NCBI GenBank assembly: GCA_017519405.1
Contig: JAFWSH010000007.1
Span: 1-64,000 of the forward strand
Direction of reading: 5' to 3'
DNA from: Clostridia bacterium
Lineage (GTDB): Bacteria > Bacillota > Clostridia > Christensenellales > Aristaeellaceae
DNA length: 64,000 nucleotides
In this document: positions 358 through 20,296 of the stretch, in pieces
Numbering within the stretch: position 1 is the first letter of the stretch
How the letters are laid out: each line of letters starts with the position of its first letter
Notes under the pieces: model-generated
The model's input: only the letters and a program-made list of their open reading frames with translations
Database searches by the model: none
What the model was told of the DNA's origin: nothing
Made by a program: the position numbers and the translations under genes

Positions 358-386
358 TTGCCACAGTCCGGGAAATCTGTTATAGT
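358..386 (+). promoter_or_regulatory. Sigma-A promoter of the LytTR/GHKL operon
   Basis: TTGCCA at 358-363, a 17 bp spacer and TATAGT at 381-386, with TG one base before the -10. It lies 30 bp upstream of the response regulator start. No LytTR-like repeats precede it, so autoregulation is not evident. Confidence 0.6.
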
Positions 387-415: not shown

Positions 416-1129
416 ATGCTCAACATCGTTCTGCTGGAGGATGAGAAGGAACAGGCGCAGCGGCTGATCGGGTTTTTGCGCAGGTATTCGGAGGAGCATC
501 CGGATTTCCAGTTCAGCCTGGTCCATTACGACCGGTCGCTGCAGATGGTGAACGAATACAAGTGTGACGCCGACATTGCGTTCCTGGATATCCAGGTGCC
601 TGATATGACGGGCATGGAGGTGGCGCGGCATATCCGGGAGATGGACAAGCGTGTCATCATCATCTTCATCACCATGCTCACCCAGTACGCCATCGAGGGG
701 TATTCCGTGGGCGCCTTTGACTATGTGCTGAAACCTGTGCGCTACGACGAGTTCTCCACTAAGATGGACCGGGTCTGCCGGATGCTGGCCCACCAGAGCA
801 CCTCCGTCAGCCTGGAGATCCGCACCAAGGAGGAGATCCGCCGGGTGGACGCGGACAGCATCACCTTCATCGAGGTGGCTAACCACGACATCCTGATCCA
901 CACGGACCGGGAGGTGATCCGCCAGTGGGGCAACCTGAAGAGCTATGAGGAGAAGCTGGCGCCGGCGCATTTCGTGCGCTGCAACGCCTGCTATCTGGTG
1001 AACCTCCGTTACGTCCGCGGGATCAGCGGGGACACGGTGACGGTGGGGGAGGAGCGGCTGCCCATCAGCAAGTCCAAGCGGAAGGACTTCCTGACGGCGC
1101 TGGCCCAGTATAAAGGGGGGAGCAGATAA
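416..1129 (+). CDS. LytTR-family response regulator
   Basis: 237 aa cytoplasmic DNA-binding regulator of the AgrA/LytR type. Residues 1-120 are a receiver domain: acidic pocket LLEDE near residue 8, phospho-acceptor D58 in FLDIQVPD, and the conserved Lys in YVLKPVRY. Residues about 135-235 are a LytTR domain, which in this family binds two 9-bp direct repeats separated by 12-13 bp. Its stop overlaps the start of the kinase gene by one base (TAATG), so the two are translationally coupled. Matching repeats lie before three promoters just downstream, so the secreted esterases are its probable targets. Family assignment is firm; the regulon is inferred. Confidence 0.95.
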   Translation: MLNIVLLEDEKEQAQRLIGFLRRYSEEHPDFQFSLVHYDRSLQMVNEYKCDADIAFLDIQVPDMTGMEVARHIREMDKRVIIIFITMLTQYAIEGYSVGAFDYVLKPVRYDEFSTKMDRVCRMLAHQSTSVSLEIRTKEEIRRVDADSITFIEVANHDILIHTDREVIRQWGNLKSYEEKLAPAHFVRCNACYLVNLRYVRGISGDTVTVGEERLPISKSKRKDFLTALAQYKGGSR

Positions 1130-2445
1130 TGTCGTCCTACATGCCCCTGTGGTACCGGGACTGGCGCAGCGCGCTGGTGCTGCTGCAGTCGGTGCTGGGG
1201 CTGTTCATGTTCTCCTACTCCCTGAAGAAACGCTCCGCCTTCCCGCTGCGCCTGCTCCTGAGCCTGGCCGCGGGCATGGCCTTCATGTTCCTTGCCGTCC
1301 GGCACATCTACGTGCCGGGCACCACCCCGGAAGCCATGGCCTCCCATGCCGTGGTGTCCGTCATCAGCTATGTCATCCTGATCGGCATCACCTGGTGCTG
1401 CTACGACGAGTCCGTGTGGTCGGCCATGTTTGCTGCCGCGTCAGGCTACCTGGCCCAGGATATCGGCGGCAGCGTGAAGACCCTCCTGCGGCAGTTCGAC
1501 TTTATGAACCGCCTGGCGGGCGCAGACCTGGGCATCCTGCTGGTGGACATGATCTGTTACGGCCTGGCCTACGCCGCGATCTTCTGCCTGATCCGGCCTT
1601 TTGCCCAGAGCCGGGAGGGCAACTTCGACAACAAGATCAAGGCGGTGTTCTCGGCGGCGGTGCTGCTGCTGTGCATCGGCATGGCGCGGCTCACCCAGGA
1701 CAACCCGGACCGCAACAACATGGCGGTGGCGGCGGAGGCCGTGCTGCAGATCATCATCGACGCCCTGGCCATCGCCCTGCAGTTCGGCGTGATGGAGCAG
1801 GCCAGACTCTCCAGCCACGTGGAGACCATGCGGGAACTGGTGCACCAGCAGCGGGTCCAGTACGAGGCCAGCAAGGAGAGTGCCCAGCTCATCGCGGAGA
1901 AATACCACGACCTGAAGCACCTGCTCCGGTCCTTCCAGGGGGCGGTCCCCCAGGAGCAGCTGGACCGGCTGAAGCAGTCTATCGCTGCCTATGAGCGCCC
2001 CGCCAACTCCGGCAACGAGGTGCTGGACATCCTGCTGGCGGAGAAACTGGGCATCTGCCAGCAGCGGGGGATTGTGCTGACCTGCAGCCTGGGGCAGACG
2101 GACTTCTCCTTTGTGGAGGAGCTGGACCTGTACTCCCTCTTCCAGAACGCGCTGAACAACGCCATCAATGCCGTGTCGGCCCTGCCCGAGGGAGTGGAGC
2201 GCTTCATCTCCCTCTCCGCCACACGGGACGGGAATATGCTCACCATCCACATGGAGAACCCCTGCGGGGAGGACATCGACTTTGTGGACGGCCTGCCCCG
2301 GACCAAGGACGACCCGGACTGGCACGGCTTCGGCATGAAGAGCATGGACCGGATCACCAGGAAATACGACGGCATGCTCACCGCCCAGCAGCGGGGGCGG
2401 ATGTTCTTCCTGGACATCCTGCTGCTGGCGCCGGAGGAGGGGTGA
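1129..2445 (+). CDS. GHKL-domain sensor histidine kinase (AgrC-like)
   Basis: 438 aa membrane kinase, partner of the LytTR regulator immediately upstream. The N-terminal 220 residues hold about six or seven hydrophobic segments without a large periplasmic domain, as in AgrC-type sensors. A coiled linker leads to the phospho-acceptor His in EKYHDLKH (H260). The C-terminal ATPase is the GHKL type: N-box FQNALNNAINAV and a glycine-containing segment HGFGMKSMDRI. The ligand cannot be told from sequence: no agrB/agrD-like peptide gene lies nearby, so sensing of a small molecule or an exogenous peptide is equally possible. Confidence 0.93.
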   Translation: MSSYMPLWYRDWRSALVLLQSVLGLFMFSYSLKKRSAFPLRLLLSLAAGMAFMFLAVRHIYVPGTTPEAMASHAVVSVISYVILIGITWCCYDESVWSAMFAAASGYLAQDIGGSVKTLLRQFDFMNRLAGADLGILLVDMICYGLAYAAIFCLIRPFAQSREGNFDNKIKAVFSAAVLLLCIGMARLTQDNPDRNNMAVAAEAVLQIIIDALAIALQFGVMEQARLSSHVETMRELVHQQRVQYEASKESAQLIAEKYHDLKHLLRSFQGAVPQEQLDRLKQSIAAYERPANSGNEVLDILLAEKLGICQQRGIVLTCSLGQTDFSFVEELDLYSLFQNALNNAINAVSALPEGVERFISLSATRDGNMLTIHMENPCGEDIDFVDGLPRTKDDPDWHGFGMKSMDRITRKYDGMLTAQQRGRMFFLDILLLAPEEG

Positions 2446-2458
2446 AAGCCCCGGACAT

Positions 2459-2527
2459 CCGGTTTACGATGTGGAACGGGACACTTGCGCGGTTCGTCTT
2501 GAGGCGGGCGGCGCTTTTCGCTATGGT
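2459..2527 (+). promoter_or_regulatory. LytTR-type operator and promoter of the glucuronoyl esterase gene
   Basis: Half-site 1 CCGGTTTAC (2459-2467), 12 bp, half-site 2 GACACTTGC (2480-2488), 10 bp, -35 TTGAGG (2499-2504), 17 bp, -10 TATGGT (2522-2527). The layout matches base for base that at 3852-3920 and 6736-6804. LytTR regulators are known to use 9-bp repeats with a 12-13 bp spacer. Binding by the regulator at 416-1129 is inferred. Confidence 0.65.
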
Positions 2528-2593
2528 GCAATCAGAGGGTGATTGCCCGCATGCACAGACGATCAAACAGACAATCAAAAGGAGGCTTCTGCA

Positions 2594-3805
2594 ATGAAAA
2601 GACTGCTTTCCCTGCTGCTGGCCGTGCTGCTGCTGCTTCCGACGGTGACCCTGGGGGAGGAGCTCTTCGGCCGGACCTATGTCAACCTGCCGGACCTGAT
2701 GACCATGGGGGACGGCAGCCCCGTGGACACCCCGGAGAGGATGGCCGCCCGGCGGGCGGAGCTGCTGGCCCTCTTCGCCGACAGCATGTACGGCCCGATC
2801 CCCTCAGAGGGATTCGAGAAGCACTTCGAGGTGCTGGAGGAGGGGGAGACCCTGGACGGCACCGCCATCCGCCGGCAGGTGAAGATTACCGTCACCACGC
2901 CAATGGGCTCCTGCGATGCGCTGATGCTGATGATCCTGCCCAAGTCGGATGCGCCGGTGCCGGTGGTGTTCGGTCTGGGGGGCGAGGTGCACACGGTCCT
3001 GGCGGATCCGGCGATTCTGCCCTCCTACTCCATGAACAAGTATCCCAACATCAAAGAGGAGCCCCGGGGCCAGGGCGCCGCGGGCTGGTGCGTCGAGGAG
3101 GCGGTGAAGCGGGGCTACGGCATCGCCGTCGCCTGCTATAACGACTTTGTGCCCGACACCGTCCGCAGCTACAAGAAGCGCCTGTTCTCCATCTTCGAAA
3201 AGGACACGGTCTCCGGTATGAGCGCTTGGGCGCTGGAGCTGAGCTGTATGGCGGACTGGCTGGTGCAGGATCCCCAGGTGGACGCGGGCCGGCTGGCGGT
3301 GGTGGGCACCTCCCGCTTGGGCAAGGCAGCTCTGTGGTACGGCGCCAACGACGAGCGGGTGGCCCTGGTGATCCCCAACGTCAGCGGCACCTGCGGCGCG
3401 GCCCTGACCCGCAGCTGCGAGAAGGAGCAACTGGCTGACCTGAACGCCAACTTCCGCTGGTGGATGAGCGAAACCTGCAAGACCTACAACGACCGGGTGG
3501 AGGAGCTGCCGGTGGACCAGCATGAGCTGATCGCCTGCGTGGCGCCCCGGAAGGTTTACGTCAGCAGCGCCGAGACCGACACCTCCAACGATTCCCAGGG
3601 CACCTGGATCGCCCTGATGCTCAGCCGGGACGCCTTCCGCCTCTATGGCCTGAAGGTGATTGAGGACGCGGGTGTGGAGCAGCCTGCCCCCGGCGAGCGG
3701 ATCTTCACGGAGAGCATGGCGTACCATATGCGCACAGGAAATCACGGCATCACCCCGGAGGACTGGGGCAACTATTTCGACTACATGGACGAGTACCTGA
3801 AGTGA
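2594..3805 (+). CDS. Secreted CE15-type glucuronoyl esterase
   Basis: 403 aa exported alpha/beta hydrolase. The start at 2594 is preceded by AAAGGAGG and begins a signal peptide (MKRLLSLLLAVLLLLP). CE15 hallmarks are in order: nucleophile S240 in VVGTSRLGKAALW (family motif GCSRxGKGA), the substrate-loop segment SGTCGAALTR, HELIACVAPRKVYV, and catalytic H384 in RTGNHGITPED. CE15 enzymes cut the ester between 4-O-methyl-glucuronic acid on xylan and lignin alcohols. It has its own LytTR-type promoter and is followed by CE1-like esterases, consistent with hemicellulose side-chain removal. The canonical GCS reads GTS here, a mild change. Substrate is inferred from family. Confidence 0.88.
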   Translation: MKRLLSLLLAVLLLLPTVTLGEELFGRTYVNLPDLMTMGDGSPVDTPERMAARRAELLALFADSMYGPIPSEGFEKHFEVLEEGETLDGTAIRRQVKITVTTPMGSCDALMLMILPKSDAPVPVVFGLGGEVHTVLADPAILPSYSMNKYPNIKEEPRGQGAAGWCVEEAVKRGYGIAVACYNDFVPDTVRSYKKRLFSIFEKDTVSGMSAWALELSCMADWLVQDPQVDAGRLAVVGTSRLGKAALWYGANDERVALVIPNVSGTCGAALTRSCEKEQLADLNANFRWWMSETCKTYNDRVEELPVDQHELIACVAPRKVYVSSAETDTSNDSQGTWIALMLSRDAFRLYGLKVIEDAGVEQPAPGERIFTESMAYHMRTGNHGITPEDWGNYFDYMDEYLK

Positions 3806-3851
3806 TCGGGGAGGGGGAGCCGCCCGGCCGGGGTCTCTCCTCCCCAAAATG

Positions 3852-3920
3852 TCCAGTTACGATGTGAATCCGTGCACTTGCGCGGTTCGCCTTTCAGGGC
3901 GGGCCGCGCTTTTGTATAGT
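3852..3920 (+). promoter_or_regulatory. LytTR-type operator and promoter of the first CE1-like esterase
   Basis: Half-site 1 TCCAGTTAC (3852-3860), 12 bp, half-site 2 TGCACTTGC (3873-3881), 10 bp, -35 TTTCAG (3892-3897), 17 bp, -10 TATAGT (3915-3920). It shares CACTTGCGCGGTTCG with the 2459-2527 operator although the flanking sequence differs, so the segment looks functional. Regulation by the adjacent LytTR protein is inferred. Confidence 0.68.
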
Positions 3921-3966
3921 ATGATCAGCCGGCAGCAATGCCGAAAAAAGTGAAGGAGGCGTCCCC

Positions 3967-4905
3967 ATGAAAAAGTTTCTTGCCCTGATGCTCGCCCTGC
4001 TGCTTTGCCTGAGCGCCCTGGGCGCCACGGCGGAGATTCCCGAGGAGAAAAAGCCTGTGGAGACCGAGCTGGACGGCGGTGTGGTGGCCAGCATGCACAC
4101 CTTCAACGCCAAGATTTATGAGGCGGAGTGCGAGCAGCCCGGCACCATCGAGCGTCTGGACTACACCACGGCCGTGTACGGCGACGGCGTCACCTATCAG
4201 CAGTGGGCCAACGTCTACCTGCCCTACGGCTACGACGAGACCCGGCAGTACAACATCCTCTACTTCTTCCACGGCACCAACGAGACCCAGAACAGCTTCA
4301 TCGCCGAGCCCATCGTGAAGAACGTGGTGGACAACATGATCTTCTACGGCGTGTGCGATCCCTTCATCATCGTCTGCCCCACCTACTACTACGTCTATGA
4401 GAACCGCACCGTGCAGCACGACGTCTTCCCCCTGGAGGTGCGCAACGACCTGATGCCCGCGGTGGAGTCCAAGTATTCCACCTATGCCGAGACCGCCGAT
4501 GAGGCCGGCTTCATCGCCTCCCGGGCGCACCGGGCCATTTCCGGCTACAGCCAGGGCTGCCACGCCTGCTGGAACAACGCCTATGTGAACTTCGACCTGG
4601 CGAAGTGGATCGTGCCCATGTCCGGCAGCAGCGTGGACAACCTGCAGGCCATGAAGGACGCCTTCGCCGCCAAGCCCGGCTATGAGGACGACACCTTCTT
4701 CATCCTCTGCTCCGGCGGCAAGCGCGACTTGGCCTACGAGGGCACCGTCGCCCTGGCCAACGCCATGCTGGCCGACGAGGCCTTCAGCTACGGCACCGAC
4801 CCCCAGGAGAACAACTTCTACGTCGCCATCTCCAAGGACCTCCATCAGACCCTGAAGGGCCGCAACAACCTCTACAGCATCCTGGTGGATGTGCTCTTCA
4901 AGTAA
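3967..4905 (+). CDS. Secreted CE1-like esterase (feruloyl/acetyl esterase type)
   Basis: 312 aa alpha/beta hydrolase of the esterase D/CE1 group with a cleavable signal peptide (residues 1-22, ending near ATAEI). The fold signatures are NVYLPYGYDE, YFFHGTNETQ (oxyanion region), the nucleophile elbow AISGYSQGC with S195, an acid-loop segment SGGKRDLAYEG and the C-terminal His in KDLHQTLKGR. It is one of three paralogues here (see 4972 and 10616). CE1 enzymes release ferulate or acetate from arabinoxylan; which ester this one cuts is not visible. It starts the second LytTR-controlled unit and probably shares a transcript with the next two genes (66 and 51 bp gaps). Confidence 0.85.
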   Translation: MKKFLALMLALLLCLSALGATAEIPEEKKPVETELDGGVVASMHTFNAKIYEAECEQPGTIERLDYTTAVYGDGVTYQQWANVYLPYGYDETRQYNILYFFHGTNETQNSFIAEPIVKNVVDNMIFYGVCDPFIIVCPTYYYVYENRTVQHDVFPLEVRNDLMPAVESKYSTYAETADEAGFIASRAHRAISGYSQGCHACWNNAYVNFDLAKWIVPMSGSSVDNLQAMKDAFAAKPGYEDDTFFILCSGGKRDLAYEGTVALANAMLADEAFSYGTDPQENNFYVAISKDLHQTLKGRNNLYSILVDVLFK

Positions 4906-4971
4906 ATCTGCGGGCCGCGGCGGGGGAGAGAAGCCTCCGCCGCGCTTTGCCCTGAGAAAGGAGTGCTGTGC

Positions 4972-5940
4972 ATGAGAAAAGTGCTGGCAGCCCTGCTGAT
5001 CCTCGCGCTGCTGATTCCCGTCTTGCCGGTGCAGGCGGAGGAGACGGCGGCCGGGGAGCTTGATCTGAGCGACCTGGCGGGGGTGCCCACCCACTACCGG
5101 CGCTACGACGCCGCCGTCTTTGAGGCGGAGGATGAGCAGCCCGGCACGGTGGTGAAGATGAAGTACACCACCGAAAAGTACGACAAGCCCTACAAGAAGA
5201 CACTGAACGTGTACCTGCCCTACGGCTATGACGAGAACGGGACGGAGCGCTACCCGGTGCTGTACTTCTTCCACGGCCGGGGCTGCAATCCGGACACCCT
5301 GATCGGCAACCCCCAGACCAAGAACGCCTTCGACCACATGATCTCCAGCGGCCTGGTGCGGCCCTTCATCCTGGTGTCGCCCACCTACTACTACGACATG
5401 CGCAAGCAGCTGGTGGACTATGACCGGTTTGTGCTGGAGATGCGGGAGGAGATCATGCCCCTGGTGGAGGGCACCTACCGGACCTGGGCCCAGACCCCGG
5501 ACGAAGCGGGCTTCCGGGCCTCCCGGGAGCAGCGGGCCATCAGCGGCTTCTCCATGGGGAGCTTCACCACCTGGAACCTCTTCGGCAGCATGCTGGACGT
5601 GAGCGCCACCTTCCTGCCCTTCTCCGGCGCCTTCAGCCTGATCGAGGGCGGGGAGACCACCCTGGACAGCATCCGCGGGACCATCGACGCCGTGGAGGGG
5701 GACTACTTCATCTACATGGCCTGCGGCGGGGAGGAGGACCTGGCCTTCGAGGGCTGCAGCGCCCTGGCCCGGGAGATGCGGGGGGACGAGGAGTACTTCT
5801 CCTACGGCACGCAGCGGGGGAGCAGCCACTTCTACTACGTCCAGTCCGACAACATCCACCAGGACCTCACCAGCCGCTACTATCTCTACAACGCTTTCCT
5901 GGACGGTGTGCTCTGGCCCGCCCCGCCCGCACAGGAATGA
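4972..5940 (+). CDS. Secreted CE1-like esterase, second paralogue
   Basis: 322 aa exported alpha/beta hydrolase. The ATG at 4972 is chosen over the GTG at 4963 because AAAGGAG (4957-4963) sits at proper distance and the protein then begins with the signal peptide MRKVLAALLILALLIP. It has the canonical family elbow SGFSMGS with S194, the acid-loop segment CGGEEDLAFEG and His in DNIHQDLTSR. NVYLPYGYDENG and YFFHGRG align with its paralogues. It lies in an apparent operon with the genes on both sides. The best guess is feruloyl or acetylxylan esterase; the substrate is not established from sequence. Confidence 0.85.
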   Translation: MRKVLAALLILALLIPVLPVQAEETAAGELDLSDLAGVPTHYRRYDAAVFEAEDEQPGTVVKMKYTTEKYDKPYKKTLNVYLPYGYDENGTERYPVLYFFHGRGCNPDTLIGNPQTKNAFDHMISSGLVRPFILVSPTYYYDMRKQLVDYDRFVLEMREEIMPLVEGTYRTWAQTPDEAGFRASREQRAISGFSMGSFTTWNLFGSMLDVSATFLPFSGAFSLIEGGETTLDSIRGTIDAVEGDYFIYMACGGEEDLAFEGCSALAREMRGDEEYFSYGTQRGSSHFYYVQSDNIHQDLTSRYYLYNAFLDGVLWPAPPAQE

Positions 5941-5991
5941 GAACCCGCGAGCCCCGACACCGTATGAATTGAGAAAAAAGAGGGAAAAACC

Positions 5992-6717
5992 ATGAGAAAG
6001 ATGCTTGCCCTGCTGCTGACCCTCGCCCTGCTCCTGGCCCTGTCCCCGGCCCGGGCGGAGGAGGCGCCCTCCCCCTACAGCGTCATCAGGCAAATGCTGG
6101 ACGGCCGCAGCTGGACCATGACCGCCGCCGTCACCGACGTTCAGGCGGAGGCGGGGGCCATCCCCTTTGAGACGGCCGCCCTCAGGCTGTGGGAGGAGGC
6201 GGACGCCATCCTCTGCGAGGGCACTCTGAACGGTGGGGCGGTGCTCACCGCCCGGATGACTGCCGAGGGCTTTGCCTATGAGTGCGCCATGATCGCCGAC
6301 GGCCCCCAGGCCTGGACCTGGGCGGAGATGCCCCCCAGCGCGTCGCTGGAGACGGCGGAGGACGGCTTCAGCCTGAGCCTGCGCCTCAACGGCCTGGACT
6401 ATGAGCACATCACCATCTCCATCGACCTGGACGGCAGCTGGCCGGAGGGTTATGAGGGCGAGTTCGGCTACACCCTGATGAAAGGCAGCGGCGAGATCTA
6501 CGGCCTGTGGGACGTGTTCTCCGCCCAGGCGGGAGAGACGGGCACCGAGCTGATCATCAGCCTGGTGAACGAGACCTGCCTGACCGGGGAGGGCGTGCAG
6601 ACCGTGGAGACCGGGGTGCAGGGGATGACCGTCACCCGGGTGGAGAACGTGGCCGTGCTGGTGGACGACGTGGAGGCTGGCACTGCCACCCTGACCCGCA
6701 CCGTGACCTGGGAGTGA
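5992..6717 (+). CDS. Secreted protein of unknown function
   Basis: 241 aa, not recognised. A typical signal peptide (MRKMLALLLTLALLLA..., cleavage near ARAEE) precedes an acidic, Thr/Gly-rich domain with alternating polar and hydrophobic residues that suggests a beta-rich fold. There is no lipobox and no catalytic motif that I can name. It follows two CE1-like esterases by 51 bp, with its own ribosome site (AGAGGG), so it is probably co-transcribed with them and may be an accessory binding protein. That role is a guess from context. Confidence 0.75.
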   Translation: MRKMLALLLTLALLLALSPARAEEAPSPYSVIRQMLDGRSWTMTAAVTDVQAEAGAIPFETAALRLWEEADAILCEGTLNGGAVLTARMTAEGFAYECAMIADGPQAWTWAEMPPSASLETAEDGFSLSLRLNGLDYEHITISIDLDGSWPEGYEGEFGYTLMKGSGEIYGLWDVFSAQAGETGTELIISLVNETCLTGEGVQTVETGVQGMTVTRVENVAVLVDDVEAGTATLTRTVTWE

Positions 6718-6735
6718 CCCGGGACTGCTGGCTTG

Positions 6736-6804
6736 TCCGTTTACGATGAAAAACAGTCCGTTTACGCTGTTTGCCTTGAATAGTACGATGATGACTGCTA
6801 TAAT
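6736..6804 (+). promoter_or_regulatory. LytTR-type operator with perfect direct repeats, and promoter
   Basis: TCCGTTTAC occurs twice (6736-6744 and 6757-6765) with a 12 bp spacer, an exact 21 bp period. After 10 bp come -35 TTGAAT (6776-6781), 17 bp and a perfect TATAAT (6799-6804) with TGC before it. This is the best copy of the operator and the strongest of the three promoters. Confidence 0.75.
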
Positions 6805-6857: not shown

Positions 6858-7451
6858 ATGAAGAAACTGGTTGCGATCATCCTGGCCCTGGCCCTGGCCC
6901 TGTCCATCGCCTCCGTCGCCACTGCTGCCCCGATCCTGAGCACCTACAACCTGAGCGGTGTGGAATTCATTGATGCGGTGGGCTGGTACTGGACCACGGA
7001 CGTGAGCCTGGTGCTCCGCGACGAGACCAACTATGAGCTGTTCTACCGCGTGTACACCTTCGGCACCACCGACCCCGGCCTGAAGGCCAACAAGGTCATC
7101 GTGTACTCCGGCACCTACAGCAAGGTTGAGTCCGCTGACGATGAGGCCTGCCACTTCGACATCACCCTGAACACTGTGGACGGCATCTACTTCGAGCAGC
7201 ACGGCAAGGGCTTCGGCCGCAATCCCCTGGGCTATGCCATGGTGCTGGACACCTTCGCCTGGACCGACGAGATGACCGAGATCGCTTTCCCGGATGGCTC
7301 TGACGACGGCGCTGCCGACTTCATCGCCAACCACAACATCGCCGGCACTGTGATCACCGTGGAGGATCTCCGCGAGGATCTGGACGATGTCACCCTGGAG
7401 AACAAGATCGTCGCCCTGCCCGAGGGCTTCAATGCCGACATCACCGAGTAA
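6858..7451 (+). CDS. Secreted protein of unknown function, strongly promoted
   Basis: 197 aa, no family recognised. The signal peptide covers about residues 1-23 (MKKLVAIILALALALS, cleavage near ATAAP). The mature part is aromatic-rich at first (GWYWTTDVS, YELFYRVYTFG) and acidic at the end. It has only one Cys, no lipobox and no cell-wall anchor. It carries the perfect LytTR repeats and the best -10 of the locus plus a strong ribosome site (AAGAAGGAGG), so it is probably the most abundant product of the regulon. A hairpin follows its stop. A small carbohydrate-binding or signalling role is possible but unsupported. Confidence 0.8.
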   Translation: MKKLVAIILALALALSIASVATAAPILSTYNLSGVEFIDAVGWYWTTDVSLVLRDETNYELFYRVYTFGTTDPGLKANKVIVYSGTYSKVESADDEACHFDITLNTVDGIYFEQHGKGFGRNPLGYAMVLDTFAWTDEMTEIAFPDGSDDGAADFIANHNIAGTVITVEDLREDLDDVTLENKIVALPEGFNADITE

Positions 7452-7545: not shown

Positions 7546-10500
7546 ATGGCCAAGAAAGAGAACGGAAAACCCAAGGGCAAGCTGGTTTGGAAAATCCTCT
7601 GCGGGGTTTTCGCCTTCCTGTTTGTGTTTCTGATGATCGCCGGCCCCATCGCCAACAACTACACCGCCATCATCGACATGGTGCTGGGCATCGACGCCCC
7701 GCCGCCCAAGGTGGATGACAGCGGGGAAGCGCTTCCCCCCCGCTTTGTGGCCGACTACGCCACCAGCGCGGAGCAGGCGGCAGCGGCTGACCTCGTCTGC
7801 GAGTCCGTGGTGGCCAACGGCGCCGTGCTGCTGCTGAACCGGGGCGAAGCCCTGCCCCTGGCCGGCAGCGAGAAGGTGAGCCTCTTCGGCACCTCCTCTG
7901 CCCGCTTCGTCTACGGCGGCACCGGCTCCGGCGGCATGAACAACGCCAACGCCACCACCCTCAAGGACGCCCTGGAGCAGGACGGCTTCAACGTGAACCC
8001 CACCCTGTGGGCCTTCTATCGGGAGGGCGCCGGCAGCCAGTATGGCCTGAAGGACGCCGCCGGCTCCCTGAACAACTACATCTTCAAAAACGAGGAGTTC
8101 ACCGTCAATGAGGTGCCCCAGAGCGTCTACACCGACGCGGAGTGGGACAGCGTGAAGGAATACGGCGACGCGGCCATCGTGGTCATCGGCCGGGTGTGCG
8201 GCGAGGGCAAGGACCTGCCTGTGGTGGGCGCCAGCGACGCGAACGGCAACATGCTCTCCATCAGCCAGGAGGAGCGGGATCTGCTCCAGAATCTGGCGGA
8301 TCTGAAGGCCGCGGGCACCATCAAGAAGATCGTGGTGCTCCTCAACACCGCCAACGCGGTGGAGGTGGACGTGCTGGAGCCCGCCGTCTGCGGCGTGGAC
8401 TACGGCATCGACGCCTGCCTGTGGGTGGGCAATGTGGGCCAGAGCGGCATCCGGGCCATCGGCGATCTGCTCTCCGGCAAGATCAACCCCTCCGGCCGCC
8501 TGGTGGACACCTACTGCTACGACAACACCACCTCCCCCGCGGTGCAGAACGCCTATGTGACCTCCTACACCAACGCCGCGGAGAAGGGCCTGGCCTTCGC
8601 CAAGACCAACAACGAGTACTACGTGGTCTACCAGGAAGGCATCTACATCGGCTACCGCTACTATGAGACCCGCTATGAGGACATGGTGCTGGGCAACGCC
8701 AATGTGGGGGACTATGACTACGCCAGGACTGTGGCCTTCCCCTTCGGCTACGGCCTGAACTACTCCGGCCTGACCTACGGCAAGCTGGCCATGAAGGAGA
8801 GCGGCGACCACTTCGACTTCACGGTGGACGTGACCAACCCCTCCGGCCGGGACGCCCGGGAGGCGGTGCTGATCTTCATGCAAAGCCCCTACACCGAATA
8901 TGACCGGCAGAACGGCATCGAGAAGGCCGCCGTGGAGCTGGTGGGCTACACCAAGGTGGACGTGCCCGCCGGCAAGACCGTGACCGCCAGCGTGACCGTG
9001 GCGAAGTCCGAGATGCGCACCTATGACGCCAACGGCGCGAAGACCTACATCGTGGACGAGGGCAGCTACTACTTCGCCACCGGCAATGGCGCCCACGACG
9101 CCCTGAACAACATCCTGATGCTCAAGGCTGCCCAGAACGACACCGCCAACGGCACCGTGGACACCGGCCGGATGGTGGGCGAGGGCAAGGCGGACCTGGC
9201 GGTGGTCTTCAAGCAGGGCAAGCAGGACACGACCACCTACGCCAAGAGCCACACCGGCTTTGAGATCACCAACCAGCTGGAGCACGGCGACCTGAACAAG
9301 GTGGACAGCGACACCACCAACGACGTGAAGTACCTGACCCGGGCCGACTGGGCCGGCACCATGCCCAAGGCGGACCTCTCCGGCGGCGTTTACAAGGCGG
9401 CCGTGCAGATCCCCGCCAACGACGAGCTGGTGAAGAGCCTGAACACCATCATCGACTCCGAGGGCAAGGGCACCATGCCCACCCTGGGCAAGGAGGGCAC
9501 CCTGACCCTGGCCCACTTCATCGGCGTGCCCCTGGACGGCTCCGTCACCCTCCCCGACGGCAAGACCTACACCTGGGACGACCTGATGGACCAGGTGAAG
9601 TTCAACGAGATGGTGAAGCTCATCGGCCAGACCTACCACGCCACCGCCACCGTGAAGAGCGTGGGCAAGCCTGCCACCAAGGATGAGAACGGCCCCCAGG
9701 GCATCACCGCCACCCTCACCGGCGGCGCCTCCTCCACCAGCTACACCTCCGAGGATGTCATGGCCGCCAGCTTTGACCCGGCCATCGCCGAGGCGGTGGG
9801 CCGCTCCATGGGCAATGACTGCCTGATGGCCAACCGCAAGGCCTACTCCGGCATCTACGGCCCCGGCGCCAACATCCACCGCACCCCCTACTCCGGCCGC
9901 AACTTCGAGTACTACTCCGAGGACCCCTTCATCTCCGGCAAGACCTGCGCCGCGGAGACCGCCGGCATCCAGTCCAAGGGTGTGTATGTCTACAACAAGC
10001 ACTTCGCCTTCAACGACCAGGAGACCGGCCGGGACGGCATCTGCGTGTGGACCAACGAGCAGGCCGCCCGGGAGATCTACCTCCAGGCCTTTGAGTATCC
10101 CATCCGGGACGCCAACGCCTACTGCGTCATGACCTCCTTCAACCGTCTGGGCACCGTGTGGGCCGGCGGCGACTACAACCTGATCACCAACATCCTCCGG
10201 GGCGAGTTCGGCATGCCCGGCTTCGTCCTGACCGACTTCTCCAACAACAACGCCTTCATGGACGTGATCCAGGGCCTGATGGCCGGCGGCGACGGCTGGG
10301 ACTGCAACGACGCCTCCAAGTGGTCTGACAAGCTGAAGAAGTATGAGAACGATCCCCAGGTGGTCACCGCCATGCGGGAGGCCGCCAAGCACATCCTCTA
10401 CACCGTGGCCAACTCCAACGCCATGAACGGCATGGGATTCACCACCATTGTGGAGGAGCCATACCGCTGGTGGCAGGACGCCATCAAGTACGGCCAGATC

Positions 10501-10581
10501 GGCACCGGCGTGCTGGCGGTCCTCTTCCTGGGCCTGGCCATCGCCAGCGGCGCCCGGGCGAAGAAAAAGGCCGCCCAGTGA
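7546..10581 (+). CDS. Membrane-anchored GH3 glycosidase with reversed domain order
   Basis: 1011 aa. Residues about 15-45 form a transmembrane anchor. The usual GH3 second domain (alpha/beta sandwich; NGAVLLLNRGEALPL, VSLFGTSSARFVYGGTGSGG) comes first, at about 75-390. A fibronectin III-like domain follows (about 410-525, VTNPSGRDAREAV). The catalytic TIM barrel comes last (about 650-950): GPGANIHRTPYSGRNFEYYSEDP, KHFAFNDQE, and nucleophile D897 in FVLTDFSNNN. A second hydrophobic helix and a basic tail end the protein. Normal GH3 order is barrel, sandwich, FnIII. Inverted GH3s are known from Ruminococcus albus and Butyrivibrio. Likely beta-glucosidase or beta-xylosidase, exported and held at the membrane. 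Confidence 0.92.
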   Translation: MAKKENGKPKGKLVWKILCGVFAFLFVFLMIAGPIANNYTAIIDMVLGIDAPPPKVDDSGEALPPRFVADYATSAEQAAAADLVCESVVANGAVLLLNRGEALPLAGSEKVSLFGTSSARFVYGGTGSGGMNNANATTLKDALEQDGFNVNPTLWAFYREGAGSQYGLKDAAGSLNNYIFKNEEFTVNEVPQSVYTDAEWDSVKEYGDAAIVVIGRVCGEGKDLPVVGASDANGNMLSISQEERDLLQNLADLKAAGTIKKIVVLLNTANAVEVDVLEPAVCGVDYGIDACLWVGNVGQSGIRAIGDLLSGKINPSGRLVDTYCYDNTTSPAVQNAYVTSYTNAAEKGLAFAKTNNEYYVVYQEGIYIGYRYYETRYEDMVLGNANVGDYDYARTVAFPFGYGLNYSGLTYGKLAMKESGDHFDFTVDVTNPSGRDAREAVLIFMQSPYTEYDRQNGIEKAAVELVGYTKVDVPAGKTVTASVTVAKSEMRTYDANGAKTYIVDEGSYYFATGNGAHDALNNILMLKAAQNDTANGTVDTGRMVGEGKADLAVVFKQGKQDTTTYAKSHTGFEITNQLEHGDLNKVDSDTTNDVKYLTRADWAGTMPKADLSGGVYKAAVQIPANDELVKSLNTIIDSEGKGTMPTLGKEGTLTLAHFIGVPLDGSVTLPDGKTYTWDDLMDQVKFNEMVKLIGQTYHATATVKSVGKPATKDENGPQGITATLTGGASSTSYTSEDVMAASFDPAIAEAVGRSMGNDCLMANRKAYSGIYGPGANIHRTPYSGRNFEYYSEDPFISGKTCAAETAGIQSKGVYVYNKHFAFNDQETGRDGICVWTNEQAAREIYLQAFEYPIRDANAYCVMTSFNRLGTVWAGGDYNLITNILRGEFGMPGFVLTDFSNNNAFMDVIQGLMAGGDGWDCNDASKWSDKLKKYENDPQVVTAMREAAKHILYTVANSNAMNGMGFTTIVEEPYRWWQDAIKYGQIGTGVLAVLFLGLAIASGARAKKKAAQ

Positions 10582-10615: not shown

Positions 10616-11599
10616 ATGAAGAGACTGATCGCCCTGCTCCTCGCCCTGGTTCTGCTCTGCAGCACCGCCGCCCTGGCCGAGGGCCGCACCGCCCCCGAGG
10701 ACAAGAAGGTCACCACCACCACCGATGTCGTCGGTGTGGAGACCACCTACAAGAAGTATGACAACAAGTTCTACGAGGCGCCCTCCGAGCAGCCCGGCAC
10801 CGTGGTGCGCCTGGACTACACCACCACCGCCTACGGCAGCGAGCTGGCCACCTGGGCCAACGTCTACCTGCCCTACGGCTACGACGAGAATGGCACGGAG
10901 CGCTACAACATCATCTACTTCCTCCCCGGCACCAACGAGACCCAGGACAGCTTCATCACCGACGAGAAGGCCAAGAACGCCCTGGACAACATGATCGAGG
11001 TGGGCATTACTGAGCCCTTCATCATGGTCTTCCCCTGCTACTACTACGACTATGAGAACCGGGCCATCGACATGGAGGCCTTCTCCACCAAGGAGATGCG
11101 GGACGACCTGATGCCCGCTGTGGAGAGCACCTACCGCACCTGGGCCGAGACCACGGACGACGCCGGCTTCATCGCCTCCCGGGAACACCGCGCCTTCGCC
11201 GGCTTCTCCCGCGGCTGCTATGCCTGCTGGCACCAGTTCTTCCACAGCCTGGACCGGGCCTACTGGTTCATGCCCTTCTCCGCGAACATTTCCGGCGCGG
11301 AGGAGATGAGCCTGGAGATGCCCGTGGAGGAGCAGATCCAGATGCTCAAGGACGCCCTGGCCGCCCAGAGCGAGTACAAGGACAGCTTCTTCATCTACGC
11401 GGCCTGCGGCAGCAAGCGGGACATGATGTACGACGTGAACGCGGCGCTGATCAAGGCCATGATCGCCGACAGCGAGGACTTCAGCTACGGCACGGACAAG
11501 AGCGTGAACAACCTCTACTTCTGCTCCTCCACCGAGCTGCACCAGACCCTGGTGTCCCGCTTCTACTTCTACAACGCCTTCGACGTGGTGTTCAAGTGA
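10616..11599 (+). CDS. Secreted CE1-like esterase, third paralogue
   Basis: 327 aa exported alpha/beta hydrolase, close to the proteins at 3967 and 4972. The signal peptide is residues 1-21 (MKRLIALLLALVLLCS). Conserved segments: NVYLPYGYDENG, YFLPGTNETQDSF, elbow AFAGFSRGC with S198, acid-loop segment CGSKRDMMYDV and His in TELHQTLVSR. It starts 34 bp after the GH3 gene with its own ribosome site and is followed by a strong terminator, so GH3 and this esterase form the last unit of the locus. The oxyanion motif reads LPGT where the first paralogue has FHGT, which may shift specificity. Confidence 0.85.
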   Translation: MKRLIALLLALVLLCSTAALAEGRTAPEDKKVTTTTDVVGVETTYKKYDNKFYEAPSEQPGTVVRLDYTTTAYGSELATWANVYLPYGYDENGTERYNIIYFLPGTNETQDSFITDEKAKNALDNMIEVGITEPFIMVFPCYYYDYENRAIDMEAFSTKEMRDDLMPAVESTYRTWAETTDDAGFIASREHRAFAGFSRGCYACWHQFFHSLDRAYWFMPFSANISGAEEMSLEMPVEEQIQMLKDALAAQSEYKDSFFIYAACGSKRDMMYDVNAALIKAMIADSEDFSYGTDKSVNNLYFCSSTELHQTLVSRFYFYNAFDVVFK

Positions 11600-11668: not shown

Positions 11669-11727
11669 GCGGCGGCTTCACGCCTGCGGGCCGCAGCAAA
11701 CAAACGATGGAAGGAAGGGTAATCATC

Positions 11728-12774
11728 ATGGCAAAGCGGGTTTTCATTCTGTTCCTGGTGGCGCTCCTGCTCCCGCTCTGGGCCTTTGCGGAGGGGTCGG
11801 ACGTGTGCCTGCGGATCGACCGGGATAACGCCACGGCCTGGAAGGGCCGGCTGGCCAACGCGCGCCACCTGAATGAGGAGCGCATGTCCGGCTGTGCCCA
11901 GTTCTCTGTCAACCAGTTCGGGAAATGGGCAGCCGCGCTGAAGAAAAAGTCTGCGCACGTCTGGATTGTGGACTGTCGGCTGGAGACCCACGGCTTCATC
12001 AACGGCATCGCCGTCTCCTGGGCCAACACCCTGAACAATGCCAACCTGGGGAAAACCGCGGCGGAGGTGGAGGCGGAGGAGACGGCTCTTGCCAGCCTGG
12101 TGGGCACTACCGTGACCGCCTGTACCATGAATACCGATCCGCCGGAGCCCGCGGTGGAATTCACCGTGGAGACCTGGCAGACCGAGCGGGAGCTGGTGGA
12201 GGCTGAGGGCTTCGGCTACCTCCGGCTGGCCTGTCCGGACCACATCTGGCCGCCTGCCGGGGCCATCGACGAGTTTATCACCTTCACCCGGGATCTGCCG
12301 GAGGACGCCTGGCTCTGCTTCCACTGCCACGCCGGCTCCGGCCGCACCGGCGCCTTCATGACCATCTGGGAGATGATGCAAAAGCCGGACACGCCGTTGG
12401 AGGAGATCCTGCAGCACCAGGCGGAGACCGGCAGCACCAATATGGTGGCCCGCTCTGCGTCGGATACGGAGCCCGGCGGCGGCCTGCCGGAGGGTCCCGC
12501 CCTGGAGAGAAAACGGGCGACGCAGCAGCGCATCATCATGGTGCGGGCCATGTACGCCTATCTCCGGGAAAACCGGGAGACGAACTACGCCGTGACCTGG
12601 AGCGACTGGCTGGCCGCCCACTCCCGGACCGAAAAACTGCAGGTGGGACAGCACCTGGAGGGGGAGGGCATGAGCTCGGACCCGCTGGTGGTCAGCGATA
12701 CGCTGGAGGCGCTGGCCCCCGGACAGGTTGTGGTGCTGGCGGGTGACACGGTTCTCTTCATCACCGTGGAATAG
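11728..12774 (+). CDS. Secreted PTP-like cysteine phosphatase (phytase-like)
   Basis: 348 aa exported protein. ATG 11728 has an upstream AAGGAAGGG and starts a signal peptide (MAKRVFILFLVALLLP). The core holds the tyrosine-phosphatase P-loop HCHAGSGRTGAF with nucleophile C200, and before it the segment YLRLACPDHIWPPAGAIDEF, which resembles the general-acid loop region (DHxWP) of Selenomonas-type PTP-like inositol polyphosphatases. Such enzymes dephosphorylate phytate outside the cell. A substrate other than phytate is possible. It stands alone between two terminator-like regions. About 50 residues after the catalytic domain have no clear family. Confidence 0.85.
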   Translation: MAKRVFILFLVALLLPLWAFAEGSDVCLRIDRDNATAWKGRLANARHLNEERMSGCAQFSVNQFGKWAAALKKKSAHVWIVDCRLETHGFINGIAVSWANTLNNANLGKTAAEVEAEETALASLVGTTVTACTMNTDPPEPAVEFTVETWQTERELVEAEGFGYLRLACPDHIWPPAGAIDEFITFTRDLPEDAWLCFHCHAGSGRTGAFMTIWEMMQKPDTPLEEILQHQAETGSTNMVARSASDTEPGGGLPEGPALERKRATQQRIIMVRAMYAYLRENRETNYAVTWSDWLAAHSRTEKLQVGQHLEGEGMSSDPLVVSDTLEALAPGQVVVLAGDTVLFITVE

Positions 12775-17695: not shown

Positions 17696-20296
17696 ATGCG
17701 AAACAAGATACTGGCGGTGCTCCTGTGCATGGCCCTGTGCCTGCTGGGGGCCGCCGCGCTGGCAGACGGGGATTTCCAGTTTGCGGCGAACCGTTATCAG
17801 GTTTTTGAGGGGCAGACCCTGCAGCTGGAACTGCTGCGCCAGGGGGACGCGGCCTCTGCCGCCGACCTGACGTTCACCTCGTCCAACCAGAAGCTGGCGA
17901 CAGTGGATGAAAACGGCCTGGTGACTGCCCGGAGCAAGGGCACAGTGACCATCACGGCGGCGGTCACCGTGGGCAGCCGGAAGGTCACGGCCCGGACCAC
18001 GGTGAACGTTCAGCGGCCGGTGACGGAGCTGCAGTTCAACGAAGAGAAGCTGGGCCTGCTGGCGCCGGACGATCCGGCCCTGGCGGGCCTGCTGACCCTG
18101 GAGAGCGAGCTGCCGGTGCTGGTGCTGCCGGTGGGCCGGACCACCAGCCTGCCGCTGACGGTGGTGCCCCGGGACGCGGACAACCGCGGCGTCACCCTCA
18201 GCGCAGAGGATGAGACGCTCTTCAAGCGGATGACAGCCCATGGCTATCAGCTGCAGCCGGACCGGGTGGGGGAGACCATCCTGACCGTCGCCTCCGTGTC
18301 CAACCCCGAAGTCGCGCTGCAGTACCATGTGCTGCTGGCCCAGCCGGCCAGGAAGGTGACGGTCACCCTCTCCCAGGCGGATGTGGTGGTGGGCCGGTCC
18401 ATCCAGGCCATGGCGGACTTCCAGCCGGAGGACACCACCCTGCGGAAGGTCACCTGGACCACCAGTACCCCGAAGATCCTCTCGGTGGATGAAAACGGCG
18501 TGGTGACCGGCCTGGCCATGGGTACCGGCCGGGTGCGCGCCACCGCCGCGGACGGCTCCGCGGTCTACGGCGAGGCCACCATCCGCGTGGCCCAGCAGCC
18601 CACCGGGGTGGTGATCAAGTCTGGCGGCCGGGAGCTGGCCACCGGCAGCGTGCTGGTGGGCGGCAGCGTGACCCTGCAGGGCAGCGTGCTGCCCCAGAAC
18701 GCCAATGTGAAGACCGTGACCTGGTCCTCCTCCGACGATGCCGTCGCCACCGTCAATGCCAACGGCACGGTGAAGGGCGTGAAGGCGGGCGCCTGCGTCA
18801 TCACCTGCGCCTCCACAGTGGATGAGGCCATCTTCGCCAGCATCCCCATGGTGGTGGAGCAGCGGGTCACCGGCATCACCCCCGCCCAGAAGAGCCTGAC
18901 GCTGAATGTGAACGAGACGGCGGCCATCCGCTGGGAGACCGCCCCCTACGACGCCACCAACCCCGCCGTGACCCTCACCAGCAGCAACAAAAAAGTGGCC
19001 ACGGTGGATGAGACCGGCACGGTGCAGGCCCTCAGCCGGGGTACTACCCAGATCACCATCAAGGCGGCGGACGGCTCCAACAAGTCCGCCACGGTGAGCG
19101 TGACGGTGAACCAGCCCCCCACGGGCGTGACCATCAAGGGCGGCGACTCGGTGCTGGTGGGCCATTCCATGACGCTGCAGGGCGTGGTGGAGCCCTCCAA
19201 CGCCAACGTGAAGACCGTGACCTGGACTTCCTCCGACCCGCGGGTGGCCACCGTCAGCACCGGCGGCCGGGTCACCGGCGTGAAGGCTGGCATCTGCGTC
19301 ATCACCTGCACCAGCACGGAAGATCCGGCGATCTTCAACAGCAAGCCCGTGACGGTGATCCAGCGGGTGACGAAGATTGAGTACACCGTGCCCGCCATGA
19401 CCCTGAACGTGGGGGAGACGGGCCTCCTGTCCTGGACGGTGGCGCCCGAGGATGCCACGGACAAGACGGTGACCCTCTCCACGGCCAACAAAAACGTGGC
19501 TACCGTGGACCAGGACGGCACCGTGCACGCAGTGAAGCGCGGTGAGACCTACATCACCGTGAAGGCCAACGACGGCTCCAACCGCTCCGCCAAGATCAAG
19601 GTCACGGTGCTGCAGCCGGTCTACGGCGTGCACATGCGCAACGACACCATCACCGTGGGCGTGGGGGAGACGGTGACCGCCCGGGCCGAGCTGGAGCCCA
19701 GCGACGCCAGCAACCGCAACATGACCTGGTCCATCGCGGACACCTCCCTGGCCACGGTGAAGGGCACCAACAACCTGCCCAGGGTCTTCGGCATCGCTTG
19801 GGGCACCACCACCCTCACCGGCTTCACCGAGGACGGCGGCTACATGGCCCAGTGCACCGTCAAGGTGGGCCGCAACGAGCAGGCGCTGAAGATCCTGAAG
19901 GTGGCTGTGGAGAACAACCGGATCCGCCTCCTGGTGCACAATGAGAGCAACATGAACATCACCCGGTTCTATTTCAGGGTGGAGTGCTTCAACAACAACG
20001 ACGACCACATGGTGGTGGCCTACGGCGGAGCCGACAGCTTCACCGGCTACTACATGGACACCCTCTATGAGGGGGAGAACACCGTCCATGGCCGCTTCCA
20101 CTTCGACGACTATCTCCAGCCCGATGAGGAGATCGGCCGGGTGGTCTTCACCATCACCGGCTACCGCTGCGACGACGGCTTCTCCTTCTCCTACAGGCCG
20201 GAGCAGATGCCGAAGGTGGAGTACAAGGGTCCCAACTGGACGGAGCCCCAGCAGCCCTCCGAGGACGACCCCATTGTGGAGACGGAGAATCCCTGA
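17696..20296 (+). CDS. Secreted multi-domain Ig-like (BIG_2) protein
   Basis: 866 aa. Signal peptide residues 1-22 (LLGAAALADG). About eight consecutive Ig-like domains of the bacterial BIG_2 type fill residues 25-720, most with the signature TVTWxSSDxxVATVxxxGxVxGVKAG. Domains 4-5 and 6-7 are more alike than adjacent ones, so a two-domain unit was duplicated. Domain 2 is divergent. The last 140 residues form another beta-rich domain (VAVENNRIRLLVHNESNMNI). No LPXTG, transmembrane tail or SLH domain is visible, so it is probably released or held non-covalently. Likely adhesin or carbohydrate-interacting surface protein; function not proven by sequence. Confidence 0.88.
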   Translation: MRNKILAVLLCMALCLLGAAALADGDFQFAANRYQVFEGQTLQLELLRQGDAASAADLTFTSSNQKLATVDENGLVTARSKGTVTITAAVTVGSRKVTARTTVNVQRPVTELQFNEEKLGLLAPDDPALAGLLTLESELPVLVLPVGRTTSLPLTVVPRDADNRGVTLSAEDETLFKRMTAHGYQLQPDRVGETILTVASVSNPEVALQYHVLLAQPARKVTVTLSQADVVVGRSIQAMADFQPEDTTLRKVTWTTSTPKILSVDENGVVTGLAMGTGRVRATAADGSAVYGEATIRVAQQPTGVVIKSGGRELATGSVLVGGSVTLQGSVLPQNANVKTVTWSSSDDAVATVNANGTVKGVKAGACVITCASTVDEAIFASIPMVVEQRVTGITPAQKSLTLNVNETAAIRWETAPYDATNPAVTLTSSNKKVATVDETGTVQALSRGTTQITIKAADGSNKSATVSVTVNQPPTGVTIKGGDSVLVGHSMTLQGVVEPSNANVKTVTWTSSDPRVATVSTGGRVTGVKAGICVITCTSTEDPAIFNSKPVTVIQRVTKIEYTVPAMTLNVGETGLLSWTVAPEDATDKTVTLSTANKNVATVDQDGTVHAVKRGETYITVKANDGSNRSAKIKVTVLQPVYGVHMRNDTITVGVGETVTARAELEPSDASNRNMTWSIADTSLATVKGTNNLPRVFGIAWGTTTLTGFTEDGGYMAQCTVKVGRNEQALKILKVAVENNRIRLLVHNESNMNITRFYFRVECFNNNDDHMVVAYGGADSFTGYYMDTLYEGENTVHGRFHFDDYLQPDEEIGRVVFTITGYRCDDGFSFSYRPEQMPKVEYKGPNWTEPQQPSEDDPIVETENP

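Follow-up and report, generated by a model that had tools for sequence, protein, structure and literature searches.

Tandem LytTR-type operators, two of them overlapping terminator-like hairpins, in a two-component cassette with secreted esterase and GH3 genes from a Clostridia bacterium

The first 64,000 nt of contig JAFWSH010000007.1 (positions 1–64,000, forward strand; assembly GCA_017519405.1) come from a Clostridia bacterium (Christensenellales; Aristaeellaceae) with a genome of 2.27 Mb that is 80.3% complete. This stretch, the window, carries genes for a LytTR response regulator (RR) and a GHKL-type sensor histidine kinase (HK), followed by genes for secreted esterases, two secreted proteins (U241 and U197) and a GH3 protein. 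Together these very probably form a self-contained two-component cassette, in which the regulator would activate the neighbouring promoters through tandem half-sites, with promoters 1 and 2 embedded in putative terminators. The three promoters would drive a CE15-type gene, the EstA-EstB-U241 genes and the U197-GH3-EstC genes, respectively.

All three operator/promoter regions are on the forward strand. Operator/promoter 1 (2459–2527) has half-site cores at 2464–2471 (TTACGATG) and 2485–2492 (TTGCGCGG), a −35 box TTGAGG at 2499–2504 and a −10 box TATGGT at 2522–2527, and begins 13 bp after the kinase stop codon. Operator/promoter 2 (3852–3920) has cores at 3857–3864 and 3878–3885, with TTTCAG and TATAGT as −35 and −10 boxes. 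Operator/promoter 3 (6736–6804) lacks a terminator, and has cores at 6741–6748 (TTACGATG) and 6762–6769 (TTACGCTG) with boxes TTGAAT and TATAAT. At each site the tandem half-sites are 21 bp apart, the −35 box lies about 10 bp further on (in the frame of an earlier, sequence-only reading of the window) and the −10 box follows after 17 bp. That reading had reported the three sites with this layout, and all of its coordinates were verified on the sequence. Its half-site frame, TCCGTTTAC, of which site 3 holds two perfect copies (at 6736 and 6757), needs correction: the conserved core is TTACGATG, a few bases to the right, and the second half-site of sites 1 and 2 is a variant, TTGCGCGG, which doubles as an arm of a terminator-like hairpin.

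When the window genome was scanned with the shared pattern (up to three mismatches), matches were found at just these three places, none on the reverse strand and none in a backward control; repeats at random positions away from promoters were not seen at this threshold. A single half-site is a weak signal: 8.2 matches are expected in the window and 14 were counted, a number reached by 4 of 100 shuffles.

The regulator gene (416–1129, forward strand) encodes 237 aa with receiver (PF00072, 54.9 bits) and LytTR (PF04397, 56.1 bits) domains, both above cut-off; D58, by count, lies within FLDIQVPDMTG. The adjacent kinase gene (1129–2445, forward strand) encodes 438 aa with six N-terminal transmembrane (TM) helices predicted by hydropathy, a YHDLKH motif, the histidine of which we take to have its customary role, and a HATPase_c_5 domain (PF14501, 76.3 bits, above cut-off). 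No extracellular domain is apparent in the kinase, so its signal is likely to be a small ligand or a protein partner. The regulator operon has a sigma-70-like promoter at 358–386 (forward strand; TTGCCA, 17 bp, TATAGT, with TG before the −10 box), an ordinary promoter with no operator beside it in the window genome.

A kinase scan of genome contigs gave 28 loci, comprising 19 near-full-length alignments (69–86% identity), two fragments at contig ends (L089, 79%; L087, 87%) and seven distant paralogues. The relatives carrying them are labelled Clostridia, Clostridiales, Oscillospiraceae, Ruminococcaceae and, in one case, Christensenella sp. (UBA2853), and several of the genomes are from sheep, goat, buffalo or deer digestive tracts. 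The gene order of the window was compared with that of 21 loci (L088 excluded). Eight of 17 loci have an operator in the 350 bp preceding the regulator gene (start positions estimated); it is absent from that interval in the window, L068, L069, L077, L082, L083, L084, L085 and L086; only 168 bp of upstream sequence are available for L086, and L084 has an operator at about 390 bp. The kinases of L068 and L069 are 86 and 80% identical to that of the window while their regulators are just 66% identical, and both loci are without a pre-regulator operator.

Alignment of 42 sites (near-duplicate loci, minus-strand and coding matches, and L082 excluded) gave the operator consensus ccAnTTACGATGtrAAAnngnnCAgTTrCG[AC][TG]GTtcGcCTTG. 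The sole free test of spacing used 18 loci with a total of 246,092 bases (the first 16 kb of the window and 17 others, with four near-duplicate loci and one paralogue excluded) and pairs less than 60 bp apart. All 13 exact TTACGATG pairs had a period of 21 bp, as did 24 of 29 pairs when one mismatch per core was allowed, and the reversed-sequence control gave none. Of 49 sites, near-duplicates included, 38 have a −10 box (at least four of six matches) at a distance of precisely 17 bp, and 45 have one at 16–18 bp; shuffles gave a mean of 11.1 and a maximum of 20.

The operator was confined to the cassette. A relaxed consensus (up to three mismatches) had 16 matches in nine genomes, every one inside the cassette, with none in backward controls, and kinase orthologues (70–86% identity) share contigs with operators. 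No match was found in the same-genus genomes G001, G003 and G009, which yielded no kinase orthologue (in G001 and G003, just paralogues of 25–37%) and no U197 match. The proposed coupling of a LytTR-type operator to the adjacent LytTR/GHKL pair is thus supported by this confinement and co-occurrence. Chance similarity was rejected by the genome scan, the free-spacing test and the nine-genome confinement. A genome-wide regulon was also rejected, as no operator was found outside the cassette in nine genomes at up to three mismatches, with the window's own genome 80% complete and two G058 sites missed by the pattern. Across 150 genomes, 58 had some pattern match; those beyond G000, G006, G008, G020 and G065 were set aside as chance, since they are scattered, nearly all have three mismatches (G083 and G120 have two), and scattered matches appear with the backward control as well. 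One match with three mismatches, G006:C2:35412, follows the kinase of another cassette, the regulator of which groups with that of cassette E (below).

The window genome has ten GHKL matches, the window kinase included, and five of the nine other GHKL loci have 20–21-bp repeats that lie upstream of GH3 genes and differ in sequence from those of the window. Cassette B (L104, G000:C30:90290-93000) lies on the same contig, outside the window, in the order RR-HK-operator-U197-GH3, and its proteins are related to those of the window (RR 52%, HK 42%, U197 36–37%, GH3 62%). Its operator has the same layout and the terminator overlap, with half-sites (GATATGATG/GATATGCGG; ATATGATG) that differ from those of the window; a relative, G058, has half-sites TTATGATG/TTATGCGG and a different stem. 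The repeats at the other four loci (C, D, E and F), those of C and D being present also in two other genomes each, were picked by eye among the repeats listed, chance repeats included, without a significance test and from few genomes. Among the repeats listed for the remaining four of the nine loci, none could be assigned. Under a matrix of the window-type (A) operator, cassette B scores 17 and −4 bits, E 9.7, D −18 and C −38, against 27.7–61.7 bits for A sites, the matrix having been trained on most of them; for cassette F, the best score in the examined stretch fell elsewhere than the repeat. LytTR domains also differ between cassettes, with too few classes for a residue-to-base code of the contact residues. 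Because the paralogous cassettes use repeats of other sequence, each is probably a private channel. Of 32 paralogous kinase loci, 26 with 1.5 kb of flank or less, 17 have a related GH3 gene in the sequence available beside the kinase.

Two further arrangements were seen among the paralogous loci. At L109 (G000:C25:116500-122500), positions 3880–6001 hold a 20-bp-period repeat divergent from the GHKL gene, then genes for a 181-aa secreted protein and a membrane GH3; the small protein differs from U197, and the arrangement echoes U197-GH3. In L043, L046, L057 and L067 the order is HK then RR, and the gap in L046 holds a 21-bp-period repeat, TTGCGCGATG.

With ten GHKL matches in one genome, and a cassette E repeat somewhat similar to the A operator by its 9.7 bits, the three window sites might serve a different or shared LytTR regulator, the neighbouring pair being incidental. 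This is very improbable, given that operator clusters occur just where the window-type kinase occurs, lie also before the regulator in eight of 17 loci, and that the other cassettes own different repeats with low A-matrix scores.

Operators 1 and 2 overlap terminator-like hairpins. The first hairpin (2487–2514, with four T to 2518) and the second (3880–3913, 13-bp stem), both on the forward strand, each overlap half-site 2 and the −35 box of their promoter. Both combine a GC-rich hairpin with a T-run, as in intrinsic terminators, and probably act as terminators of the upstream gene; the second was also found by a simple terminator scan. Hairpin 2 has a folding energy of −26.4 kcal/mol (z −6.1), matched by none of 200 shuffles, and operator 3 folds at just −4.1 kcal/mol (z −0.4). 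At the site after the kinase gene, the second half-site is TTRCGCGG in most loci, forming the 5′ arm of a hairpin with a T-run after it. Such a structure (−8 kcal/mol or better) was found at 14 of 15 after-kinase sites, about 12 of which are independent since L070/L071/L072 and L082/L089 are near-identical groups. Elsewhere it was present at two of five sites before esterase genes, one of 13 before U197, one of 11 before the regulator and at the single site before U241 not at all.

The stem of the after-kinase hairpin covaries. The 15 different sequences compared include two of cassette B; 89.7% of the cells of their 11-pair stem were standard pairs, compared to 76.1 in shuffles and 33–44 in slid versions, the latter comparison being biased in the stem's favour because the structure was drawn from the same sequences. 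Changes on both sides affected 18 cells (5.6 in shuffles), and the covariation score was 0.370 (0.137 in shuffles). A covariance model of the composite, built from 14 sites and run with strict filters on 308 family genomes, gave 23 matches in 16 genomes (52.7 to 79.8 bits), all among cassette genes. By coordinates, 14 of these are the training sites themselves, five are near-identical to training loci (G008, G065, G248, G259 and G058:C14) and four are further sites (G326, G330:C188, G006:C1:26733 and G246:C2:4826). Directly after a kinase gene lie 19 of the 23, and the other four follow a cassette esterase or U241 gene; one of these four, G330:C188, has no kinase within its 1.5 kb of available sequence. 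The overlap of operator and terminator may be genome economy without regulatory meaning, a view compatible with the operators acting as proposed and a genuine possibility that we lean slightly against. The gap of 13 bp between kinase stop and site 1 is short, and plain cassette operators without a hairpin exist, both of which would suit economy; against it, diverged species show the overlap again behind their kinase genes, with compensatory changes, and cassette B has it with half-sites of another sequence.

These results are consistent with the following mechanism. The six-TM kinase would detect a signal and phosphorylate the regulator, which would bind a tandem pair of TTACGATG-type half-sites, with a period of 21 bp and directly before the −35 box, and recruit RNA polymerase. 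With half-site 2 and the −35 box of promoters 1 and 2 lying inside the upstream gene's terminator, read-through from the regulator operon (or from the CE15 gene) would stop just before the next −10 box, so that the enzyme genes would depend on the activated promoter; the terminator at promoter 1 would keep regulator-operon read-through out of the first enzyme gene. Activation by a regulator bound beside the −35 box is the default reading, since the kinase and regulator domains are of the usual kind and the repeats have the same geometry as published LytTR sites: 9-bp repeats that are in most cases separated by 12 bp and strongly favour a position 10 bp upstream of the −35 box (PMC6193735, available part). 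Repression of the promoters by the regulator, or a road-block at the terminator, would instead draw on the position of half-site 2 inside the hairpin, where bound protein would be in the path of a read-through polymerase. This is unlikely: the repeats stand at the position described for LytTR activator sites in that part of PMC6193735, and the poor −35 boxes of sites 1 and 2 (TTGAGG and TTTCAG) would fit promoters that require an activator.

An extension of the activation mechanism would make the composite a two-way element, in which regulator occupancy and polymerase at the embedded −35 box tie enzyme-promoter firing to what becomes of the regulator-operon transcripts, with U197 as a secreted signalling partner of the kinase. 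We regard this as doubtful; if true, the genome would hold parallel, sequence-insulated glycan-sensing channels built by duplicating one module. U197 itself is a guess at a candidate kinase partner, made because its duplication in cassette B went along with that of the regulator, the kinase and GH3.

Several observations weigh against activation through tandem half-sites in a terminator-embedded, self-contained cassette. A simple sigma-70 scan lists promoter 3 alone, promoters 1 and 2 being absent. The common spacing of the 42–49 sites is partly by construction, as they were first gathered with a fixed-spacing pattern, and it is not absolute, the composite of L076 having a 22-bp period. The relaxed pattern finds just one of three A-type sites known in G058, the two missed composites being found by the covariance model, and a diverged site in trans might therefore escape it as well. 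In the regulator, the LytTR motif FhRhHRS reads FVRCNAC, and its H is replaced by N, S or T throughout the aligned group; the window is also without an operator before its own regulator, unlike eight of the 17 loci. Hairpin 1 (−18.1 kcal/mol, z −2.4) was equalled by 4 of 200 shuffles and, with a stem mismatch and four T, is absent from the simple terminator scan. No terminator was found at any of the four sites first assigned between kinase and U197 (one of which, in L076, has a separate composite after its kinase, that with the 22-bp period), at three of five sites before esterases, or in L069. Lastly, sliding the stem by −1 gives as many pairs changed on both sides, six, and five and six of the 15 sequences do not form the outermost and the innermost pair, respectively.

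The genes downstream of the pair are all on the forward strand. Promoter 1 is followed by a secreted CE15-type (glucuronoyl esterase-like) protein (2594–3805; PF22244, E 7.9e-30), and promoter 2 by the secreted CE1-like esterases EstA (3967–4905) and EstB (4972–5940), both matching PF00756 and both far below cut-off for an NCBIfam xylanase/feruloyl esterase family, and by U241 (5992–6717), a secreted protein with a signal peptide and no Pfam match. Promoter 3 precedes U197 (6858–7451), the signal peptide of which marks it as secreted, and a GH3 gene (7546–10581), in which the Glyco_hydro_3_C domain stands ahead of the Glyco_hydro_3 domain (swapped order) and hydropathy places hydrophobic helices near both ends; U197 and GH3 are presumably co-transcribed. 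The secreted CE1-like esterase EstC (10616–11599; PF00756, 22.1 bits against a cut-off of 22) completes the cluster. The family of U197 was not found in Pfam, NCBIfam or PDB sequences, and its assignment to a known family was rejected, the matches being sub-threshold or to the signal peptide alone.

In relatives, RR-HK is followed by variable esterases and U241, then by operator-U197-GH3 (where the contig extends), usually with EstC; in L085, the U197-GH3-EstC block is upstream of RR-HK. L076 carries what appears as a deletion scar (2388–2545), consisting of a composite operator-terminator, the last codons of EstB and then the U197 operator. The most constant downstream genes are U197 and the GH3 with TM helices; the esterases, CE15 and CE1-like, differ from species to species. 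The suggested regulon of enzymes for hemicellulose side chains is thus partly supported, its most constant putative targets being U197 and GH3. Directly after the enzyme cluster is a gene for a PTP-like phytase family protein (11707–12774), and further on (17696–20296) one for an 866-aa protein with repeated bacterial Ig-like Big_2 domains.

AgrA and ComE are LytTR regulators of the direct-repeat type, and a multi-TM kinase without a separate ligand domain, paired with a LytTR regulator, resembles the AgrC/AgrA type. The window regulator does not score as an AgrA protein, with 47.1 bits against the AgrA cut-off of 400. No Agr peptide precursor or processing gene was named among the nine scanned proteins, short peptide open reading frames not having been searched. 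The HdrR/BrsR LytTR regulatory system (LRS) operons, as described in the available part of PMC6193735, have two 9-bp repeats with 12 bp between them, about 10 bp upstream of the −35 box, and the same geometry was found here; an operator before the regulator gene is likewise seen in eight of 17 relatives' loci. They differ from the window cassette, which has a two-component pair, secreted esterases and GH3 as targets, the core TTACGATG and a second repeat that can be a terminator arm.

Links between LytTR regulators and glycan degradation are already on record, so a regulon of this kind, which the earlier reading did not know to be described for this regulator class, is not entirely without precedent. 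In Butyrivibrio proteoclasticus B316 (2010), three LytTR regulators are each near a secreted GH3 with a C-terminal TM helix, and a common function was proposed (PMC2914790, available part). The window cassette shares this proximity and differs in having operators, esterases and a further secreted protein; that part of the paper mentions no operator, promoter or terminator. The Roseburia Gram-positive polysaccharide utilisation locus (gpPUL) Ros-7, an arabinoxylan locus, similarly has a LytTR two-component pair (RR[LytTR] + HK) in a hemicellulose setting, but with GH43, GH51, GH25 and ABC and GPH transporters, and with no operator in the available part of the source (PMC5320581). In the literature searched, which was mostly without subscription journals, we found no description of this cassette, of its operators or of how they diverge from one cassette to another, nor any LytTR operator placed within a terminator. 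The operators, their divergence and the terminator overlap appear to be what is new here, the LytTR-GH3 link itself having been recorded before.

Little is known of how plant-fibre enzymes are switched in uncultured rumen Clostridia. In these cassettes the regulator adjoins its own operator, and target genes can thus be assigned from sequence. The paralogous cassettes of one genome form a natural series for the divergence of LytTR specificity, and the overlap of operator and terminator offers a compact element by which an inducible gene may stay tightly controlled next to a constitutive gene.

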